Shown here one piece after another: positions 3,432 through 28,420 of a stretch of DNA of 36,400 nt. Every line of letters begins with the position of its first letter. The first letter of the stretch is position 1. The translations under genes and the position numbers were made by a program. Origin of the DNA: Archaeoglobus sp. (GTDB lineage Archaea; Halobacteriota; Archaeoglobi; Archaeoglobales; Archaeoglobaceae); NCBI GenBank assembly GCA_017656505.1, contig JACDNU010000024.1:1-36400 (forward strand), written 5' to 3'. Below the pieces are notes generated by a model that was not told the DNA's origin, did no database searches, and saw only the letters and a list, made by a program, of their open reading frames with translations.

Positions 3432-5153
3432 ATGCGAGATTTCAGAATCGCAGTCGCCCAGATAAATCCGATAGTGGGAGATCTCGATTACAATTCCAAG
3501 AAGATACTCGAGGGCATAAAAAAAGCCGAAGAGATGATGGCAGACCTAGTTTGCTTCCCCGAACTTGTTCTTCCCGGCTACCCTCCTGAAGATCTGCTTT
3601 TAAAGCCGCAGTTCGTTGAGGATAACCTTAAAGCTTTGGAAAAAATTGCCAAAGAGACTGGCGATGTTGTGGCTGTGGTCGGGTTTGTTGATGCTGAAGA
3701 CGACATCTATAATGCTGCAGCGGTAATCTACGAGGGGGAAATTAAGGGAGTTTACCGCAAGATGTTCCTCCCTAACTACAGCGTCTTTGATGAAGAAAGA
3801 TACTTCCAGGCTGGAAAGGAGCCGAACATCTTCGTCATAAATGAAGTTAATGTTGGAATAACGATTTGTGAAGACATCAGGTATGCTGACGGGCCGGCTC
3901 TGACCCAAAGTCTAAACGGGGCTGAACTAATTGTCAATCTCTCATCATCTCCATACCATGTTGGGAAAAGGGACTTCAGAAAGAGGATGCTTTCTACAAG
4001 GGCATCAGACTACTGCGTTTACGTTGCATATACGAACCTAGTTGGAGGACAGGATGAGCTCGTCTTCGATGGAGGTAGCATGGTTTTTGACGCAGACGGA
4101 ACGTTGATCGCCCAAGCAAAGATTTTTGAGGAGGACTTTCTAGTTGTTGACTTGAATCCCGATGGAATTTTCAGGAGAAGGCTGCATGATCCGAGAAGGA
4201 GGAAGGAGAAGCTGAAGGCTCAGATGATCGAAAAAATTTTTGTCTGTAAGAGTACCAAACAAAGGCAGGAGATTAAACCAAGGGTTGAAGAGGATTTAAA
4301 AATTGAGGAGGAAGTTTTCAAAGCTCTCGTTACAGGTACGAGAGATTATGTCAGAAAGAATGGATTTCAGAGGGTTCTTATTGGTTTAAGCGGCGGGATC
4401 GATTCATCGCTCGTGGCAGCCATAGCAGTCGAAGCCTTGGGAAATGAGAACGTTGTGGGCGTTATCATGCCTTCTCGCTTCACGTCCAAGGCCAGTATTG
4501 AGGATGCCGAAATACTTGCGAAAAATCTTGGGATTGAAATTGTTAGAATACCAATTACGAAAATTTTTGAGAGCTATCTCGATGAACTGAGGGATTCATT
4601 CAAGGGCAAGCCTTGGGACACTACAGAGGAAAACATCCAAGCTAGGATAAGGGGAAACATCCTAATGGCCTTATCGAACAAATTTGGCTACTTAGTGCTA
4701 ACTACCGGCAACAAGAGTGAGATGAGCGTTGGTTATGCAACTCTTTACGGCGACATGGCTGGGGGATTTGCTGTCATAAAGGACGTGTTCAAAACGATGG
4801 TTTACAGAATAGCTAAATACATAAACGAGAGGTCGGGAAAAGAAGTGATTCCAGCTAGAATATTTGAGAAACCTCCTTCCGCCGAGCTCAGAGAAGATCA
4901 AAAAGATGAGGATGATCTCCCGCCCTATAGCATTCTCGATCCGATCCTTAAAGCCTACATCGAAGAGGATAGAGCCTTTGATGAGATCGTTGCCCAAGGA
5001 TTCGATGAGGATCTCGTTAAAAGAATCATAAAGATGGTCGACAGGAATGAGTACAAGCGAAGGCAGGCTCCTCCGGGCATAAAGATTACGCCTAGAGCTT
5101 TTGGAAAGGACAGGAGGCTACCGATAACTAACAGGTACGCCCCTTGGAAATAG
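3432..5153 (+). CDS. nadE: glutamine-dependent NAD+ synthetase
   Basis: 573 residues from the ATG at 3432; the frame also has a TTG six bases earlier. It amidates nicotinate adenine dinucleotide to NAD+, the last step of NAD synthesis. The N-terminal carbon-nitrogen hydrolase domain (about residues 1-265) takes ammonia from glutamine, and its Glu-Lys-Cys triad is visible at E44 ([11 protein letters not shown]), K110 (YRKMFLPN) and C146 (ITICEDIRY). The C-terminal synthetase domain carries the ATP-binding SGGIDSS motif at 320-326, then [20 protein letters not shown] and [20 protein letters not shown], all family hallmarks. It is a single gene, divergent from amt. This fused form, common in bacteria, lets the cell use glutamine rather than free ammonia. 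Confidence 0.96.
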
Positions 5154-23660: not shown

Positions 23661-23921
23661 ATGAGAAAATCGAAATCTGAATTAAAACATTTAAGACATT
23701 TAAAATACATACAAACTGAAATTGATGAAAATTTACATGTAGTACTCAAAAACATATCAAAGTATAAAGGGAAAAGCATGAAACATGTAGTCAGGGAGGC
23801 GATCGAAGAGTATGTCGCAAAACATGAAAAAGAAATTGAAAAAGATACTTTTTTCGAGATAATTGGAAGTTTTGAAACAAAAGAAGGAAACTGGAGCGAG
23901 AGAAAAGACTGGAGGGATTAG
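23661..23921 (+). CDS. vapB: VapB-type antitoxin, ribbon-helix-helix-like
   Basis: 86 residues, ATG five bases after GGTGAG. The strand YIQTEIDENLHVVLKNISKY followed by KSMKHVVREAIEEYVAKHEK resembles ribbon-helix-helix antitoxins, preceded by a 15-residue basic leader rich in Lys and His. The C-terminal 35 residues are acidic and basic in alternation and probably bind the toxin. It lies 30 nt before a PIN-domain gene, the usual vapBC order. Assignment rests on fold pattern plus neighbour. Confidence 0.75.
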   Translation: MRKSKSELKHLRHLKYIQTEIDENLHVVLKNISKYKGKSMKHVVREAIEEYVAKHEKEIEKDTFFEIIGSFETKEGNWSERKDWRD

Positions 23922-23951
23922 TGAGAAAAGACTGTAAGAATGGAGGGTACG

Positions 23952-24389
23952 ATGGAGCGCCCAGCAATGGAGTACATTGATACCAGCGCCCTTATAGCCC
24001 TCAGTGACAAAAGGGATAAAAATCACGTTAACGCCGTCAAGCACCTTAAAGAATCTGTTAAAAAGGGGACAAGATTCGTAATTGGAAAACATGTATTGAT
24101 AGAGTATCTGGACGGAGTTACAAAAAGAATTGGGAAAGACAAAGCAATATACGAGCTTGATAAAATTCTTAACAGCAAAATCGTTGTTTTGGAATTGGAA
24201 ACTAAAAAAGACTGGATTAAAGCCTTAGAGTACTTTAGAATGTACAATGATCAGAGAATAGATCTCACGGACTGTCTTAGCTTTGCACTGATGGAAAGAT
24301 TGGGATTAAAGCAGGTTTTTACTTTTGATTCAGATTTTAGAATCCATGGTTTTGAGGTTTTACCTAATTCTAGAAATAGGAAAGTTTAG
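23952..24389 (+). CDS. vapC: VapC-type PIN-domain ribonuclease toxin
   Basis: 145 residues from the ATG at 23952, chosen over the ATG at 23940 because GGAGGG lies just before it. The PIN acidic set is visible: D10 (YIDTSALIAL), E51 (VLIEYLDG), D107 (LTDCLSFALM) and D126-D128 (FTFDSDFRIHGFEVL). It is a metal-dependent RNase that would act on tRNA, rRNA or mRNA; the target is not known. The pair with the preceding antitoxin is distinct in sequence from the VapBC pair near the left end. Confidence 0.9.
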   Translation: MERPAMEYIDTSALIALSDKRDKNHVNAVKHLKESVKKGTRFVIGKHVLIEYLDGVTKRIGKDKAIYELDKILNSKIVVLELETKKDWIKALEYFRMYNDQRIDLTDCLSFALMERLGLKQVFTFDSDFRIHGFEVLPNSRNRKV

Positions 24390-24468
24390 AAGATATTCTG
24401 CCAAAGTGTAAAGGTATGCTATAGGAAAATTGGAAAAAGAATGTCAGAAATTAATAAAGTTTAAAAAT

Positions 24469-24480
24469 TATTAGTTTTTA
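24469..24480 (+). promoter_or_regulatory. TATA-like box of the unknown three-gene operon
   Basis: GTTTAAAAATTA precedes the ATG at 24492 by roughly 20 bases, and no ribosome binding site is seen. The first gene is probably read from a leaderless transcript. Confidence 0.4.
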
Positions 24481-24491
24481 TTTCCTAAAGA

Positions 24492-24977
24492 ATGCAAACA
24501 AATACACAAGTTGAGTGTTTATATTGTGGAAATCCAAATCCTACCGTAAAAGTGTTTTCTACGCGTGAAATTGGAATAAGGTTCGGTGCCGGCTCAGGCG
24601 GTATATCGGGCGACATATCATATCGAGAAGAATGGAATTTAAGATTAACACCCGAGATAACTTGTGATTTTTGTGGGAGAAAGTACAAGCTCATTGCCGA
24701 CTCAACTAAAGTTGATTTCCTTCGAAACGTATTATCTAAAATGGCTTTTTCGGATGCGCTAATTGATATTATGGATGAGTTTGGAATTAGCTTAGATAAC
24801 GTGGAAAATGGCTTTGTAGGGATATCTTTCCCAAAAGGTTTTATAAGTTCGATTAAAAGAAAAACTATTGGTAAAAAGGAGTTTCATATCATATTCATGT
24901 CTGGGGAGAGGAGATATTACATGACGTTTTATAAGTCTCGAGATCAAATGGTTGCGGTAAATGTGGAGAGGGTCTGA
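24492..24977 (+). CDS. four-cysteine zinc-ribbon-like protein of unknown function
   Basis: 161 residues; I do not recognise the family. Two CxxC knuckles, C9-C12 (CLYCGNPNP) and C58-C61 (CDFCGRKYKL), are separated by 45 residues, so a single zinc site with a large insert is likely. The insert has a glycine-rich stretch (RFGAGSGGISGDIS). The C-terminal 90 residues are mixed alpha/beta (FISSIKRKTIGKKEFHIIFM, then RRYYMTFYKSRDQMVAVNVE) and basic, which suggests nucleic-acid binding. It heads a tight three-gene operon, 11 nt before the next start. Confidence 0.7.
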   Translation: MQTNTQVECLYCGNPNPTVKVFSTREIGIRFGAGSGGISGDISYREEWNLRLTPEITCDFCGRKYKLIADSTKVDFLRNVLSKMAFSDALIDIMDEFGISLDNVENGFVGISFPKGFISSIKRKTIGKKEFHIIFMSGERRYYMTFYKSRDQMVAVNVERV

Positions 24978-24988
24978 GGTGTATGGTT

Positions 24989-25567
24989 ATGATAGAGCAA
25001 AAGAACGTTTTAAAAGAATTGCCAGATAAAACCAAGTTGTATTCGATAGATGAGTTTAAGAATTTGCTTAAGAGATCTCCACAAAATAAGATCCTTGTAA
25101 GAGATGCGATTCTCATGTTATTGGCGGCCAGAAATAGAAAACCGATTTACGGCCGAACGATGCTAATGAAACAAATATTCCTCCTCTATGAAGAAATACT
25201 AAAGAAATACGGTCTGAAATTCCAAGATCCGAAATTTGTACCATATAGGTATGGACCATATAGTTTTGCAGTTATGCAAGTACTTGAGGATTTGGACTTC
25301 GCCGGATACATAAAGATAGAGGGGCGAAAAAATAGCAGAAAAGAGAGATTTATGTTGACAGAGAAAGGACTCTCAGAGATTATAAACAAGTTCAGGACTT
25401 TGGATGATAAAGTTCAGAGGGAGATTGAAGAAAAGAGGATTGGTTGGGACCAACTTGGTACAAACGGGATTTTGAGGTACGTTTACCAAAACTATCCTAA
25501 ATTCAAAGAAAAATCTGAACTCAAAGAAAAATACAAGGAGATCGAGTGGGGGAAGGGCAAGGCATGA
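24989..25567 (+). CDS. winged-helix-like protein resembling YwgA/Panacea-type proteins
   Basis: 192 residues from the ATG at 24989, seven bases after GAGGTG; an ATG at 24983 is nearly inside that site. The core GRTMLMKQIFLLYEEILKKY, followed by FVPYRYGPYSFAVMQVLEDL and FAGYIKIEG, resembles the pattern of YwgA and of DUF4065 (Panacea) proteins: helix with LxKLxFL, then YGPYS, then a winged-helix region ending LTEKG. Panacea proteins often act as antitoxins or defence-linked adaptors; I rate this as family resemblance seen by eye, not proof. The stop overlaps the next start (ATGA). Confidence 0.65.
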   Translation: MIEQKNVLKELPDKTKLYSIDEFKNLLKRSPQNKILVRDAILMLLAARNRKPIYGRTMLMKQIFLLYEEILKKYGLKFQDPKFVPYRYGPYSFAVMQVLEDLDFAGYIKIEGRKNSRKERFMLTEKGLSEIINKFRTLDDKVQREIEEKRIGWDQLGTNGILRYVYQNYPKFKEKSELKEKYKEIEWGKGKA

Positions 25568-26733
25568 AAAGTATGAAGATTAAAGTATCTAATATCGATG
25601 AGACAGAATATGTATATACTACACGATCGCTAAAGATTAAATTTGGTGAGAAAACAATAGAATCCCCTTTGAGAGCGTTAACCAATTCTGAACTCATAGC
25701 AAAGTCAAACATACCATCAGAAATTCCTTTGCAAGGTGAAATAGCCTTTATAATGAGAAAATTGGATAAAAAGGAAATTATAGAGTTTATGGATAACAAC
25801 AGGAAATTTAGTAGAGTTCTGGAATATATTGAGGGGTATAAGCTAAGAATGCAACACTCCGATATCGTCTTCTCGTTAATTCAACCAACCAGATCGGCTC
25901 TTAGGCTTATCAATAGAGATGAGGCTCGAGTTAGCCAGTTTATAAGAATGAACATAAAAGCTCAGCAAATGGCTGGATTTGAGAGTATTACAATTCCTTG
26001 GGTCGGAGTTGGGATGAGGAAAGCGATTGAGATCTATAAATCTATTGAAAGGAATCTGGAAAATGAGTTGATCTTTTTTGTTGATGTATCAGACCCAGAG
26101 GGACTTGGGGAAATTGTTGATTATTTCAAAGAGTTGAACGAAACAGGAAGAATTAATTTTGTTGGAGTTATTTATGGTTCTCCAAGAAAAAATTGGCCAA
26201 GTTACGATATATTGTGGAGAAACCTGAGGGATGTGGATCTTGCTGTAATAGTGGCTGATGTTGAAAGGTACGAGAATTCGCGGTATTTATCCGGACTGCA
26301 TTTGCAGGAATTTATATTTGGAGATATTTTTGCCTTGGAGATGAAAAGAGTTTACAAGGGCAGGAGTAAAGATGGAGAGGAGAAAGATGTTGGGAGACTG
26401 CTGAAATTTTTCAATAGGGAGAATCTACAAGTGTTGCCAATAAAAGATACTGGATTTGATGTTATGGAAAATGTTGCTAAAGAATTTGGTGACGATAAAA
26501 AGATAAAAATAGCTCTTGAGAATTATGAAGAGGCTAGGAGAGATGACGAAAAATTGAGTGTGTTGTTATCGATCTCAAAGGTTCATGAGTTCATGGCTAG
26601 TAGAGATGAATTTGATGTTTCACGAGAGTATATTGATAAGAGTGAAACAAAGGACTACATTAAGGAAAAGGAAACGTTAAATGAGTTTTTAAGGAGAATA
26701 AAAGGTCAGAAGAAGCTTTCAGTACAAATATAA
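25564..26733 (+). CDS. unrecognised 389-residue protein, third gene of the operon
   Basis: The ATG at 25564 overlaps the stop of the previous gene (ATGA) and follows GGGGGAAGGG, so it is the likely start; a GTG at 25546 is less likely. No family was recognised. The middle part alternates strands and helices (ELIFFVDVSD, INFVGVIYGSPRK, VDLAVIVADVERYENSRY), which looks like an alpha/beta or TIM-barrel enzyme. The last 110 residues are a charged helical region. There is no signal peptide, membrane segment, nucleotide-binding loop or HNH/PD-ExK-type nuclease motif that I can see. A remote link to tRNA-guanine-transglycosylase-like barrels came to mind, but no signature supports it. Confidence 0.65.
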   Translation: MKSMKIKVSNIDETEYVYTTRSLKIKFGEKTIESPLRALTNSELIAKSNIPSEIPLQGEIAFIMRKLDKKEIIEFMDNNRKFSRVLEYIEGYKLRMQHSDIVFSLIQPTRSALRLINRDEARVSQFIRMNIKAQQMAGFESITIPWVGVGMRKAIEIYKSIERNLENELIFFVDVSDPEGLGEIVDYFKELNETGRINFVGVIYGSPRKNWPSYDILWRNLRDVDLAVIVADVERYENSRYLSGLHLQEFIFGDIFALEMKRVYKGRSKDGEEKDVGRLLKFFNRENLQVLPIKDTGFDVMENVAKEFGDDKKIKIALENYEEARRDDEKLSVLLSISKVHEFMASRDEFDVSREYIDKSETKDYIKEKETLNEFLRRIKGQKKLSVQI

Positions 26734-26930
26734 ACATAAGCTCGGATATCTTATCTTAATCAAAATCATGGATAAATGGGGAAATTCCTAAAGTTTGATC
26801 TATAAAAAACAAGATTATCTCACCTTCTGATCCAAATATTAAGTTTAATAAAAAAAGTTAAGGCGTAATCTAAATATCCTAAAAGTTAGTTAGGAAATGA
26901 TAAGAAAAGATAATTAATTGAGGTGTGAAA

Positions 26931-27707
26931 ATGGACTTTTGTGACTTCTGTGGGAATGAGATCACACTTCCTTATAAATGTCCTTTTTGTGGCGGAAGTT
27001 TCTGTGATGATCACCGTCTTCCTCCTAACCACGATTGTATTGGTATTGAATTCTGGCGTAAACGTCAGCCTCCAAATAAAAAACTTATACGGAGAAAAGG
27101 CAGACCAGAATTCAGCACTATCGAGATCCAGACAGTTAAGCTGAGCGAATTTGTCCCATATATCCCTGACAGCGTTCTTCCAGCCCTAACACCCGATGAG
27201 CCACTTGAAGGATGGGAGAAGTACGGTCTGGCGAGAGAAGATGTCGATGATCTGTATCGAATACCACTCAGAAAATACTGTTATTACTGCGGAAAACGAA
27301 TCTGGAACGATTTGCAATTCGTCTGCAGCCATTGCGATCTCAGTTTTTGTGAAGAGCATAGAACTCCGGAAGATCACGGATGTCTGGATAAGAGAAAATA
27401 CATACTCCCACCCGGAATTGGTTACTACGAGCTTCTGAACATGTGCGAATTTTGCGGTAGTGTTGGAGTGATTGAAAGATGCCAATATTGCGGGAAAGCA
27501 TTTTGTAAAGAGCACCTCTATCCTTCTTCTCACAATTGCGAAAAATATACGCCTCATAAAGTTCGCTTACATGCTGGAGTAATTGATTATGTTGCTACAA
27601 AGGAAATTACACCGAAAAGTGGAGATGTAAGTGTAAATTTAGATAAAAAAGATGAAACCAAAAAAGAGAGTAGTATTAAGCGCTTTCTGAAAAGGCTTTT
27701 TGGTTGA
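26931..27707 (+). CDS. triple AN1-type zinc-finger protein
   Basis: 258 residues from the ATG at 26931, after GAGGTG; a GTG at 26925 belongs to that site. Three AN1-type fingers (C-x2-C ... C-x2-C ... C-x2-H ... H-x-C) lie at residues 4-36 (CDFCGNE, CPFCGG, CDDH, HDC), 117-151 (CYYCGK, CSHCD, CEEH, HGC) and 172-203 (CEFCGS, CQYCGK, CKEH, HNC). Between fingers 1 and 2 is an 80-residue Pro-rich linker with no named domain. The C-terminus is basic (KRFLKRLFG). AN1 fingers in eukaryotes bind ubiquitin-pathway and chaperone partners; the archaeal role is unknown. It is a single gene on the plus strand. Confidence 0.88.
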   Translation: MDFCDFCGNEITLPYKCPFCGGSFCDDHRLPPNHDCIGIEFWRKRQPPNKKLIRRKGRPEFSTIEIQTVKLSEFVPYIPDSVLPALTPDEPLEGWEKYGLAREDVDDLYRIPLRKYCYYCGKRIWNDLQFVCSHCDLSFCEEHRTPEDHGCLDKRKYILPPGIGYYELLNMCEFCGSVGVIERCQYCGKAFCKEHLYPSSHNCEKYTPHKVRLHAGVIDYVATKEITPKSGDVSVNLDKKDETKKESSIKRFLKRLFG

Positions 27708-27835
27708 ATTAACTGCAATACAAAAACTGTTTACTTTTTCTATTTTCAGATACAAAAATTAGAATTTAAAAGTTCAAAAAAGCGAAGAAAGCTATTTCTA
27801 GGTTTGCATCCAAATTAAAACAAAAGGTGATGAGG

Positions 27836-28420
27836 ATGAGATTTCCAAAATTAAGCCTGTACTTCACTCTTGGATTTGCGCTTCTAGTACTTCTAGCACT
27901 TTCTGGCTGCAGTCAAGCTCCACAAGCTGAGAAAACACCAGAGAAGACACCAAAAAGTATGCAAAAAGTCATAGTTCAAATTGAATTTTCAATTTTCCCG
28001 AAGAAATACACCTGCGATGGAGCCGACATTTCACCCGAGATTAAGATAAGTGGAGTTGCAGAAAATGCTAAATCGCTGGCAATCATAATGGATGATCCCG
28101 ACGCACCCATGGGAACTTTTACCCACTGGATAGTCTGGAACATTCCTGCAAGCAAAGAGGTTGTAATTCCTGAAGCTTTTCCTAAGGATTCGGTGGTTGA
28201 AAAACCCTTGAAAGCTGTGCAGGGAGTTAACGATTTCAAGAAGATCGGATACTGGGGCCCCTGTCCACCTCCCGGAAAACCGCATAGGTATTTCTTCAAG
28301 GTCTATGTCCTCAACGATGAGCTGGATTTGAAGCCAAAGGCAAGCAGAAAAGAGCTTGAGCGAGCAATGGAAGGGAAGATAATCCAGTACGGCGAGGCAA
28401 TGGCAACTTACGGCAGGTAG
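27836..28420 (+). CDS. PEBP-family (YbhB/YbcL-like) lipoprotein
   Basis: 194 residues. The ATG at 27836 is chosen because GGTGAT precedes it by four bases; the GTG at 27827 and ATG at 27830 fall within that site. A signal peptide (YFTLGFALLVLLALSGC) ends in a lipobox with Cys25, so the protein is probably lipid-anchored on the outer face of the membrane, followed by a Gln/Pro/Lys-rich linker. The PEBP ligand-binding motifs are MDDPDAPMGTFTHWIVWN and GYWGPCPPPGKPHRYFF. PEBP proteins bind small anionic or lipid-like ligands; in prokaryotes their role is unclear. Confidence 0.92.
   Translation: MRFPKLSLYFTLGFALLVLLALSGCSQAPQAEKTPEKTPKSMQKVIVQIEFSIFPKKYTCDGADISPEIKISGVAENAKSLAIIMDDPDAPMGTFTHWIVWNIPASKEVVIPEAFPKDSVVEKPLKAVQGVNDFKKIGYWGPCPPPGKPHRYFFKVYVLNDELDLKPKASRKELERAMEGKIIQYGEAMATYGR

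Follow-up and report, generated by a model that had tools for sequence, protein, structure and literature searches.

A patchily distributed archaeal gene cassette that pairs a Panacea-like protein with a putative, very divergent TGT-superfamily protein

Panacea (DUF4065/SocA) is an experimentally supported antitoxin domain that serves many toxins (PMC8832971), and in a Panacea protein with a fused MqsA-type zinc domain it is the zinc domain that neutralizes (PMC10440598). Among accessories of restriction systems, the tRNase PrrC is described in PMC2610378 as being silenced by its linked type I enzyme. TGT proteins have already been described in defense, namely in Dpd and type IV CBASS as well as in a BREX-related system (PMC12839542, PMC11996544). 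The Cap10 protein of type IV CBASS is presented in PMC11996544 as a TGT-family enzyme remodeled to bind a deazaguanine-bearing protein N-terminus, together with the QueC-like Cap9.

Here, we analyzed a 36,400-nucleotide stretch of an Archaeoglobus contig, referred to in the following as the window, which contains a cassette of three genes for a zinc-ribbon protein, a Panacea-like protein and a 389-residue protein. No described system matching the cassette was found in open-licence full texts, and the main texts of the Panacea/NetFlax papers searched did not mention a TGT partner of Panacea. We tentatively propose, with a probability of roughly 0.4, that the cassette encodes a Panacea-controlled, TGT-fold effector that would act on nucleobases and serve as a defense or toxin–antitoxin accessory, its activity, target and toxicity all being putative.

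Layout of the cassette and its insertion beside vapBC

The three genes are intact open reading frames on the plus strand (Table 1). Relatives of gene 2 use its second methionine as the start, which leaves an 11-nt gap after gene 1, and the stop codon of gene 2 and the start codon of gene 3 share an ATGA overlap. The initial annotation had described a tight three-gene operon with this spacing, lying directly after a VapBC pair, and our reading frames and coordinates agree with it. The A/T-rich island that it saw around these genes was also borne out: the G+C content of the cassette is 36.3%, compared to 42.3% for the whole window, and no stretch of equal length outside the island has a G+C content below that of the cassette.

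Table 1. Positions of the cassette genes and neighboring features in the window
Feature	Position	Strand	Size, extent and basis
VapB/VapC pair	23661-24389		Upstream of cassette; PIN domain 3e-16
Segment missing from nearest relative G003	24362..27826	.	Cassette and AN1 gene; ends approximate
Gene 1, zinc-ribbon protein	24492..24977	+	161 aa; ORF, cysteines kept in four relatives
Gene 2, Panacea-like winged-helix antitoxin-type protein	24983..25567	+	194 aa; probable start 24989
Gene 3, putative divergent TGT-superfamily protein	25564..26733	+	389 aa; profile chain to TGTs
AN1-type zinc-finger gene, three fingers	26925..27707	+	Pfam zf-AN1 6e-26

The operon is real and not a product of chance, because the same genes occur in the same order in the genomes G040, G013 and G211, and because the closest genome, G003 (rpa protein 86% identical), lacks the segment and keeps both flanks. 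The order in G003 is rpa, vapB, vapC, PEBP, pssA; genes 1–3 and the AN1-type gene are missing, and PEBP comes immediately after vapC. DNA similarity between the window and G003 ends at 24361, the end of vapC, and restarts at 27943, inside PEBP. In a further genome, G001, PEBP comes immediately after rpa, and gene 3 was found in none of the five congeners. Since these gene orders lack the segment and the congeners lack gene 3, a segment of ≈3.5 kb carrying both cassette and AN1 gene appears to have inserted here next to a VapBC pair that was already present, or else to have been lost from the other genomes. No full-length relative of the AN1 gene was found in the genus, and none was seen beside the cassette in the other cassette genomes; this gene is a passenger of the same insertion, outside the conserved cassette. 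A functional tie between the cassette and VapBC was rejected, as G003 has the VapBC–PEBP order and no cassette. Relative to the window copy, the G003 vapC gene (L085:4602-5012) appears to be frameshifted.

Family assignment of the three proteins

Gene 3 had no direct family match in Pfam, PADLOC, NCBIfam, PHROGs or the PDB, and no homologues were found in plasmids or viral contigs. It was placed through intermediates. A profile made from three CxCxxC-bearing homologues (L016, L017 and L028) matched residues 1–383 of the window protein at 2e-30 and Methanosarcina homologues at 5e-17 to 6e-14. One Methanosarcina homologue matched the archaeosine TGT model TIGR00432 at 4.6e-6, in two stretches, and a second did so at 9.7e-4; L061 and L016 gave weak matches to the same model in the zinc region, and L040 matched Pfam TGT at 0.0014. 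When the groups were compared by profile–profile alignment, the window group matched the zinc-bearing group at 7e-31 (hhalign), the zinc-bearing group matched the Methanosarcina group at 9e-20 and TGTs at 3.5e-6 to 9e-6, and a PIN-type group matched the window group at 2e-5 in its N-terminus; these values are pairwise, come from few sequences and are not database E-values, and they are mutually consistent. By way of these intermediates, which still bear the TGT zinc motif, there is good support for gene 3 as a probable, very divergent member of the TGT superfamily (PF01702 / TIGR00432). All of the TGT links are under the curated cut-offs, which makes it a remote member and not an equivalog. 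The PIN-type group would belong to the family mainly by its N-terminal half and its gene order. The third protein had been annotated as a possible enzyme, a description that the profile chain narrows to a putative TGT-superfamily protein; no close match to a housekeeping enzyme was found.

In a 15-way alignment of the family, M1, R21, P35, I144, P145, D254 and Y365 were invariant, D254 being the sole invariant acidic residue, and T34, P51 and G201 were nearly so. The window protein retains R21, T34/P35, I144-P145, G201, D254, H341-E342 and Y365. The TGT zinc site (CxCxxC...H) is present in L016, L017, L060, L061, L028 and L040–L042, and its cysteines are missing from the PIN-type clade and the window clade. 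The latter has lost the three cysteines, retains the histidine (H341) and has a separate zinc-ribbon gene. The catalytic aspartates of TGTs (DSG and the FD nucleophile) are not conserved, DSG being missing and the FD position holding A or S in a part of the alignment that is uncertain. With these aspartates unconserved and the zinc cysteines gone from the window clade, the gene 3 protein could be non-catalytic. The DpdA model NF041059 was not matched by any of the family members scanned. AlphaFold models of the window protein (6 sequences) and L061 (16 sequences) were too poor to use, with pLDDT values of 46 and 60. Foldseek gave nothing at E<0.001, the best match being at 0.04, with various barrel proteins and no TGT among the 50 matches listed, and the matches were discarded. 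Besides gene 3, the window genome has its own bacterial-type TGT, an archaeosine TGT and ArcS, and three Archaeoglobaceae genomes are without a strong QueC; the picture suggests preQ0/queuine-type base salvage in the Archaeoglobaceae carriers.

The initial name for gene 2, Panacea-like, was right as to the kind of protein, at a score that falls short of formal Pfam membership (14.5 bits against Panacea/SocA, PF13274, with a gathering threshold of 25.7). In PADLOC, the protein matched PDC-M19A at 1.6e-12, the C-terminus of a type I specificity-subunit model at 4e-9, and DarG at 8e-6 (NCBIfam DarG, 2.5e-4), where the resemblance is to the C-terminal part. Its counterpart in the equivalent position in G040/G013 is 61% identical to it, and a GPYS motif is present in every relative. 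Several relatives bear additional parts: the L061 protein has an MqsA/YgiT-type zinc domain and DUF4258, the L063 protein has UPF0175 and lies beside a PIN/DUF3368-like toxin gene, and the tail of the G285 protein is UPF0175-like. These zinc, DUF4258 and UPF0175 parts are recognized antitoxin or toxin elements. The G639 protein looks truncated. A Panacea-like protein 40% identical to that of the window (7e-22) is also encoded by the fuselloviruses (Sulfolobus spindle-shaped) SSV3, SSV4 and SSV5, possibly as a viral antitoxin or counter-defense protein. The SSV4 copy, ORF159a (L024:4004-4483), comes after a predicted RHH-like ORF159b, which was rejected as a homologue of the zinc-ribbon protein because the matching cysteines are missing from its sequence.

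The zinc ribbon of gene 1 consists of two CxxC pairs (C9, C12, C58 and C61), and no family match for the protein was found in Pfam, NCBIfam or PADLOC. Its C-terminal ≈80 residues weakly resembled DUF4258-like toxin-type proteins (hhalign P=0.006), which makes a DUF4258-like identity suggestive at most.

Gene order and restriction linkage in relatives

Gene 3 is patchily distributed, being present in 3 of 99 relatives. Among 393 Halobacteriota genomes, a first profile search found it in 7 and a later one in 9, two class-level searches added a few more, and a contig scan returned just the two known Archaeoglobaceae loci. A search for the gene order in other archaea showed that zinc ribbon, Panacea and TGT-like gene follow each other in G000 (the window genome), G040, G013 and G211, so that the homologues co-occur in three further genomes, in two of them among restriction genes. 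This conservation, which extends to the ATGA overlaps, upholds the earlier view of the three genes as one functional unit. The trio stands alone in G211. In G040 and G013 it is placed between hsdM and hsdS; genes 1 and 2 are 98% identical between these two genomes, hsdM and gene 3 are 91% identical, and hsdS is 53% identical. The two loci (L004 and L005) come from different genera, and the drop from 91–98% over hsdM and the cassette to 53% in hsdS points to replacement of the specificity subunit in a mobile locus.

In more distant loci, the company of gene 3 changes. In G138, the Panacea protein carries an N-terminal zinc ribbon and, together with the gene 3 homologue, adjoins a type III restriction system and a UvrD/GajB-like helicase. 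A small DUF4258-like gene is followed by zinc ribbon–Panacea and then gene 3 in G336, G600 and G586, and QueC by a single DUF4258–zinc–Panacea protein and then gene 3 in G563. G466 has Panacea, a small membrane-type protein and gene 3, and a PIN-like gene lies between Panacea and the gene 3 homologue in G285, G339, G642, G345, G300 and G639. Outside the genomes with the conserved trio, Panacea was directly upstream of the TGT-like gene, or one gene apart, in all examined clades but one, and at three Methanosarcina loci the gene 3 homologue has no Panacea partner. At the Panacea-less loci, an uncharacterized gene of ≈112 codons is convergent with the TGT-like gene (L040:6632-6979, L041:7036-7377 and L042:2654-2986). 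Because the pairing recurs across loci while the remaining gene differs (the first gene can be a zinc ribbon, a PIN toxin, a DUF4258-like gene or QueC), the conserved core is Panacea plus gene 3, with a variable third gene. The cassette is best read as a mobile, horizontally acquired accessory module.

The changing partners bring up another division of labor, in which the toxin would be the variable RNase-type gene (PIN or DUF4258-like, and here perhaps the C-terminal half of gene 1), Panacea its antitoxin, and the TGT-like protein an accessory that tunes or repairs, for example by protecting or restoring tRNA. The six loci with an intervening PIN gene, the DUF4258–Panacea fusion in L061, the DUF4258-like gene directly upstream in L017, L060 and L062, and the weak similarity of the gene 1 C-terminus all agree with it, and in such loci the toxin could be the recognized RNase-type gene and not the TGT-like gene. 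However, the pairs in G138 and G211 have no recognized toxin gene adjacent to them, the VapC of the window is paired with its own VapB and is found in G003 without the cassette, and the constant element is the TGT-like protein and not an RNase. We consider this division of labor unlikely.

Relatives of the module, for which we favor a Panacea-controlled effector, are repeatedly found with restriction genes. The type I locus of G040 has the order hsdR–hsdM–zinc ribbon–Panacea–TGT–hsdS, with ATGA-type overlaps at the first joints; in G013, the hsdM–cassette–hsdS core is the same and the contig ends early upstream, where hsdR is seen in G040. Of the PIN-bearing versions, those in G285, G642, G300 and G639 lie in or next to type I loci, and that in G339 near a DrmMI/IIG-like gene. 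Overall, restriction genes were found nearby in 8 of 20 loci, compared to 1 of 33 controls taken from the same genomes (P=0.001; P=0.014 once near-identical loci were collapsed), for loci of ≈15 kb or less and with restriction and Ago proteins drawn from the case loci as queries, a choice that favors the cases and biases the enrichment upward. Stronger evidence than this count comes from the position between hsdM and hsdS. No type I methylase or HsdM was found in the window genome, where the module can thus persist without restriction. The sequence comparisons support well both the probable superfamily membership and the association with Panacea and restriction, and the patchiness, the congeners without the cassette and the repeated placement at restriction–modification genes support the original suspicion of an undescribed system, for which defense is a possible role.

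Two neighbors of these loci are of separate interest. Directly after the hsdS gene of the G013 cassette locus is a short Piwi (pAgo) gene of Archaeoglobus type, preceded by a gene for a 245-residue protein that every library searched left unnamed (L005:2903-4165 and 4152-4889). A 934-residue protein with a PHP-domain-like start, possibly TrlF-like, is encoded between hsdS and the Panacea–PIN–TGT cassette of a Methanosarcina-type locus (L065:3292-6096).

An ordinary housekeeping or metabolic operon that came to lie near defense genes by chance is highly improbable. The superfamily does include housekeeping tRNA enzymes, and in about half of the loci no restriction gene is in view. Against this stand the very patchy distribution, the congeners without the cassette, the empty site in the nearest relative and the embedding in restriction operons, and the genome is already equipped with TGT, archaeosine TGT and ArcS.

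Possible roles and comparison with known systems

Placement in restriction loci and a superfamily shared with DpdA would also suit a DNA-modification arm, in which a DpdA-like transglycosylase puts 7-deazaguanine (preQ0) into DNA as a self mark and Panacea regulates it. Archaea usually make preQ0 for tRNA, and L061 has a true QueC gene (1e-56) that overlaps the beginning of Panacea, with the TGT-like gene next in order. For a BREX-related system, it has been proposed that TGT homologues are the DNA-modifying parts (PMC12839542). Nevertheless, we find this role unlikely: the DpdA model is unmatched, the DSG and FD motifs are missing, no counterparts of DpdB and DpdC were seen at the loci, most of which also lack preQ0 genes, and G040 already has a complete hsdM for marking. 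A strong QueC is missing from the three Archaeoglobaceae carriers (G000, G040 and G013), and since the genome of L061 has no other strong QueC, its copy may be a housekeeping gene, which weakens the case for a QueC dedicated to the module. Alternatively, like Cap10, the TGT-like protein might bind or move 7-deazaguanine on a protein partner. That precedent, the lost tRNA-type catalytic residues and the QueC adjacency in L061 would fit, but most loci lack a nucleotidyltransferase or a dedicated QueC-like gene and the Archaeoglobaceae carriers have no strong QueC, making such conjugation distinctly improbable.

For the Panacea-controlled effector, the catalytic activity, nucleic-acid target, toxicity, neutralization and phage trigger that we infer could combine as follows. 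Gene 3 would target a nucleobase, or the glycosidic bond that holds it, in RNA or DNA, and would be kept inactive by the Panacea protein as antitoxin or regulator. The zinc ribbon of gene 1 might be an adaptor or a second restraint, comparable to the MqsA-type zinc domain on other Panacea antitoxins. Where relatives of the module lie inside type I loci, the restriction complex might help to silence the TGT-like protein. A phage that inhibits restriction or disturbs the antitoxin would then free it, and the freed protein might block translation or replication, on the pattern of PrrC with EcoprrI or DarT with DarG.

Still tentatively, and at slightly longer odds than even, the loci may represent an as yet undescribed class of archaeal defense or toxin–antitoxin modules in which a TGT-fold effector derived from tRNA base exchange is held by Panacea and plugged into type I, type III or other restriction systems as a second line of defense. 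To our knowledge, few such restriction accessories are known in archaea. The cassette adds a putative nucleobase-enzyme superfamily to the partners of Panacea antitoxins, with a link to restriction in archaea.

Compared to Panacea toxin–antitoxin systems, the cassette likewise has a Panacea-type protein directly before its partner gene, in a compact operon conserved across several species; the partners vary, and MqsA-like zinc, DUF4258 or UPF0175 parts are attached in its relatives. It differs in its putative TGT-superfamily partner, its three genes, its restriction embedding in archaea and its sub-threshold Panacea domain. The window Panacea protein resembles the C-terminal part of DarG, and if gene 3 acts on bases, the logic of a base-acting enzyme with an antitoxin would be that of DarTG; however, the cassette has neither DarT nor a macrodomain, and its partner is TGT-like and not an ADP-ribosyltransferase. 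With TGT, archaeosine TGT and DpdA, gene 3 shares an N-terminal R...TP and a GxD[ST] segment, and its relatives share the C-terminal CxCxxC...H zinc region, whereas gene 3 lacks DSG and FD, the cysteines are lost in the window clade, and the partner is Panacea. For type IV CBASS (Cap9/Cap10), no CD-NTase, Cap9 or CBASS effector was recognized among the locus ORFs (the main cassette proteins were scanned with PADLOC), and the likeness is that of a TGT-family protein in defense, with a QueC-type gene beside one family member. The cassette has no PrrC homology and, unlike PrrC in EcoprrI, can stand alone, as it does in the window, whose genome lacks HsdM. In its relatives, by contrast, accessory genes are placed among type I hsd genes as in EcoprrI: within them in G040 and G013, and in or next to such loci in four genomes of Methanosarcina type. 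Should gene 3 act on bases of tRNA or DNA, it would represent a further recruitment of TGT machinery for immunity, after DpdA and Cap10, and would compare to PrrC as a guard of type I restriction.
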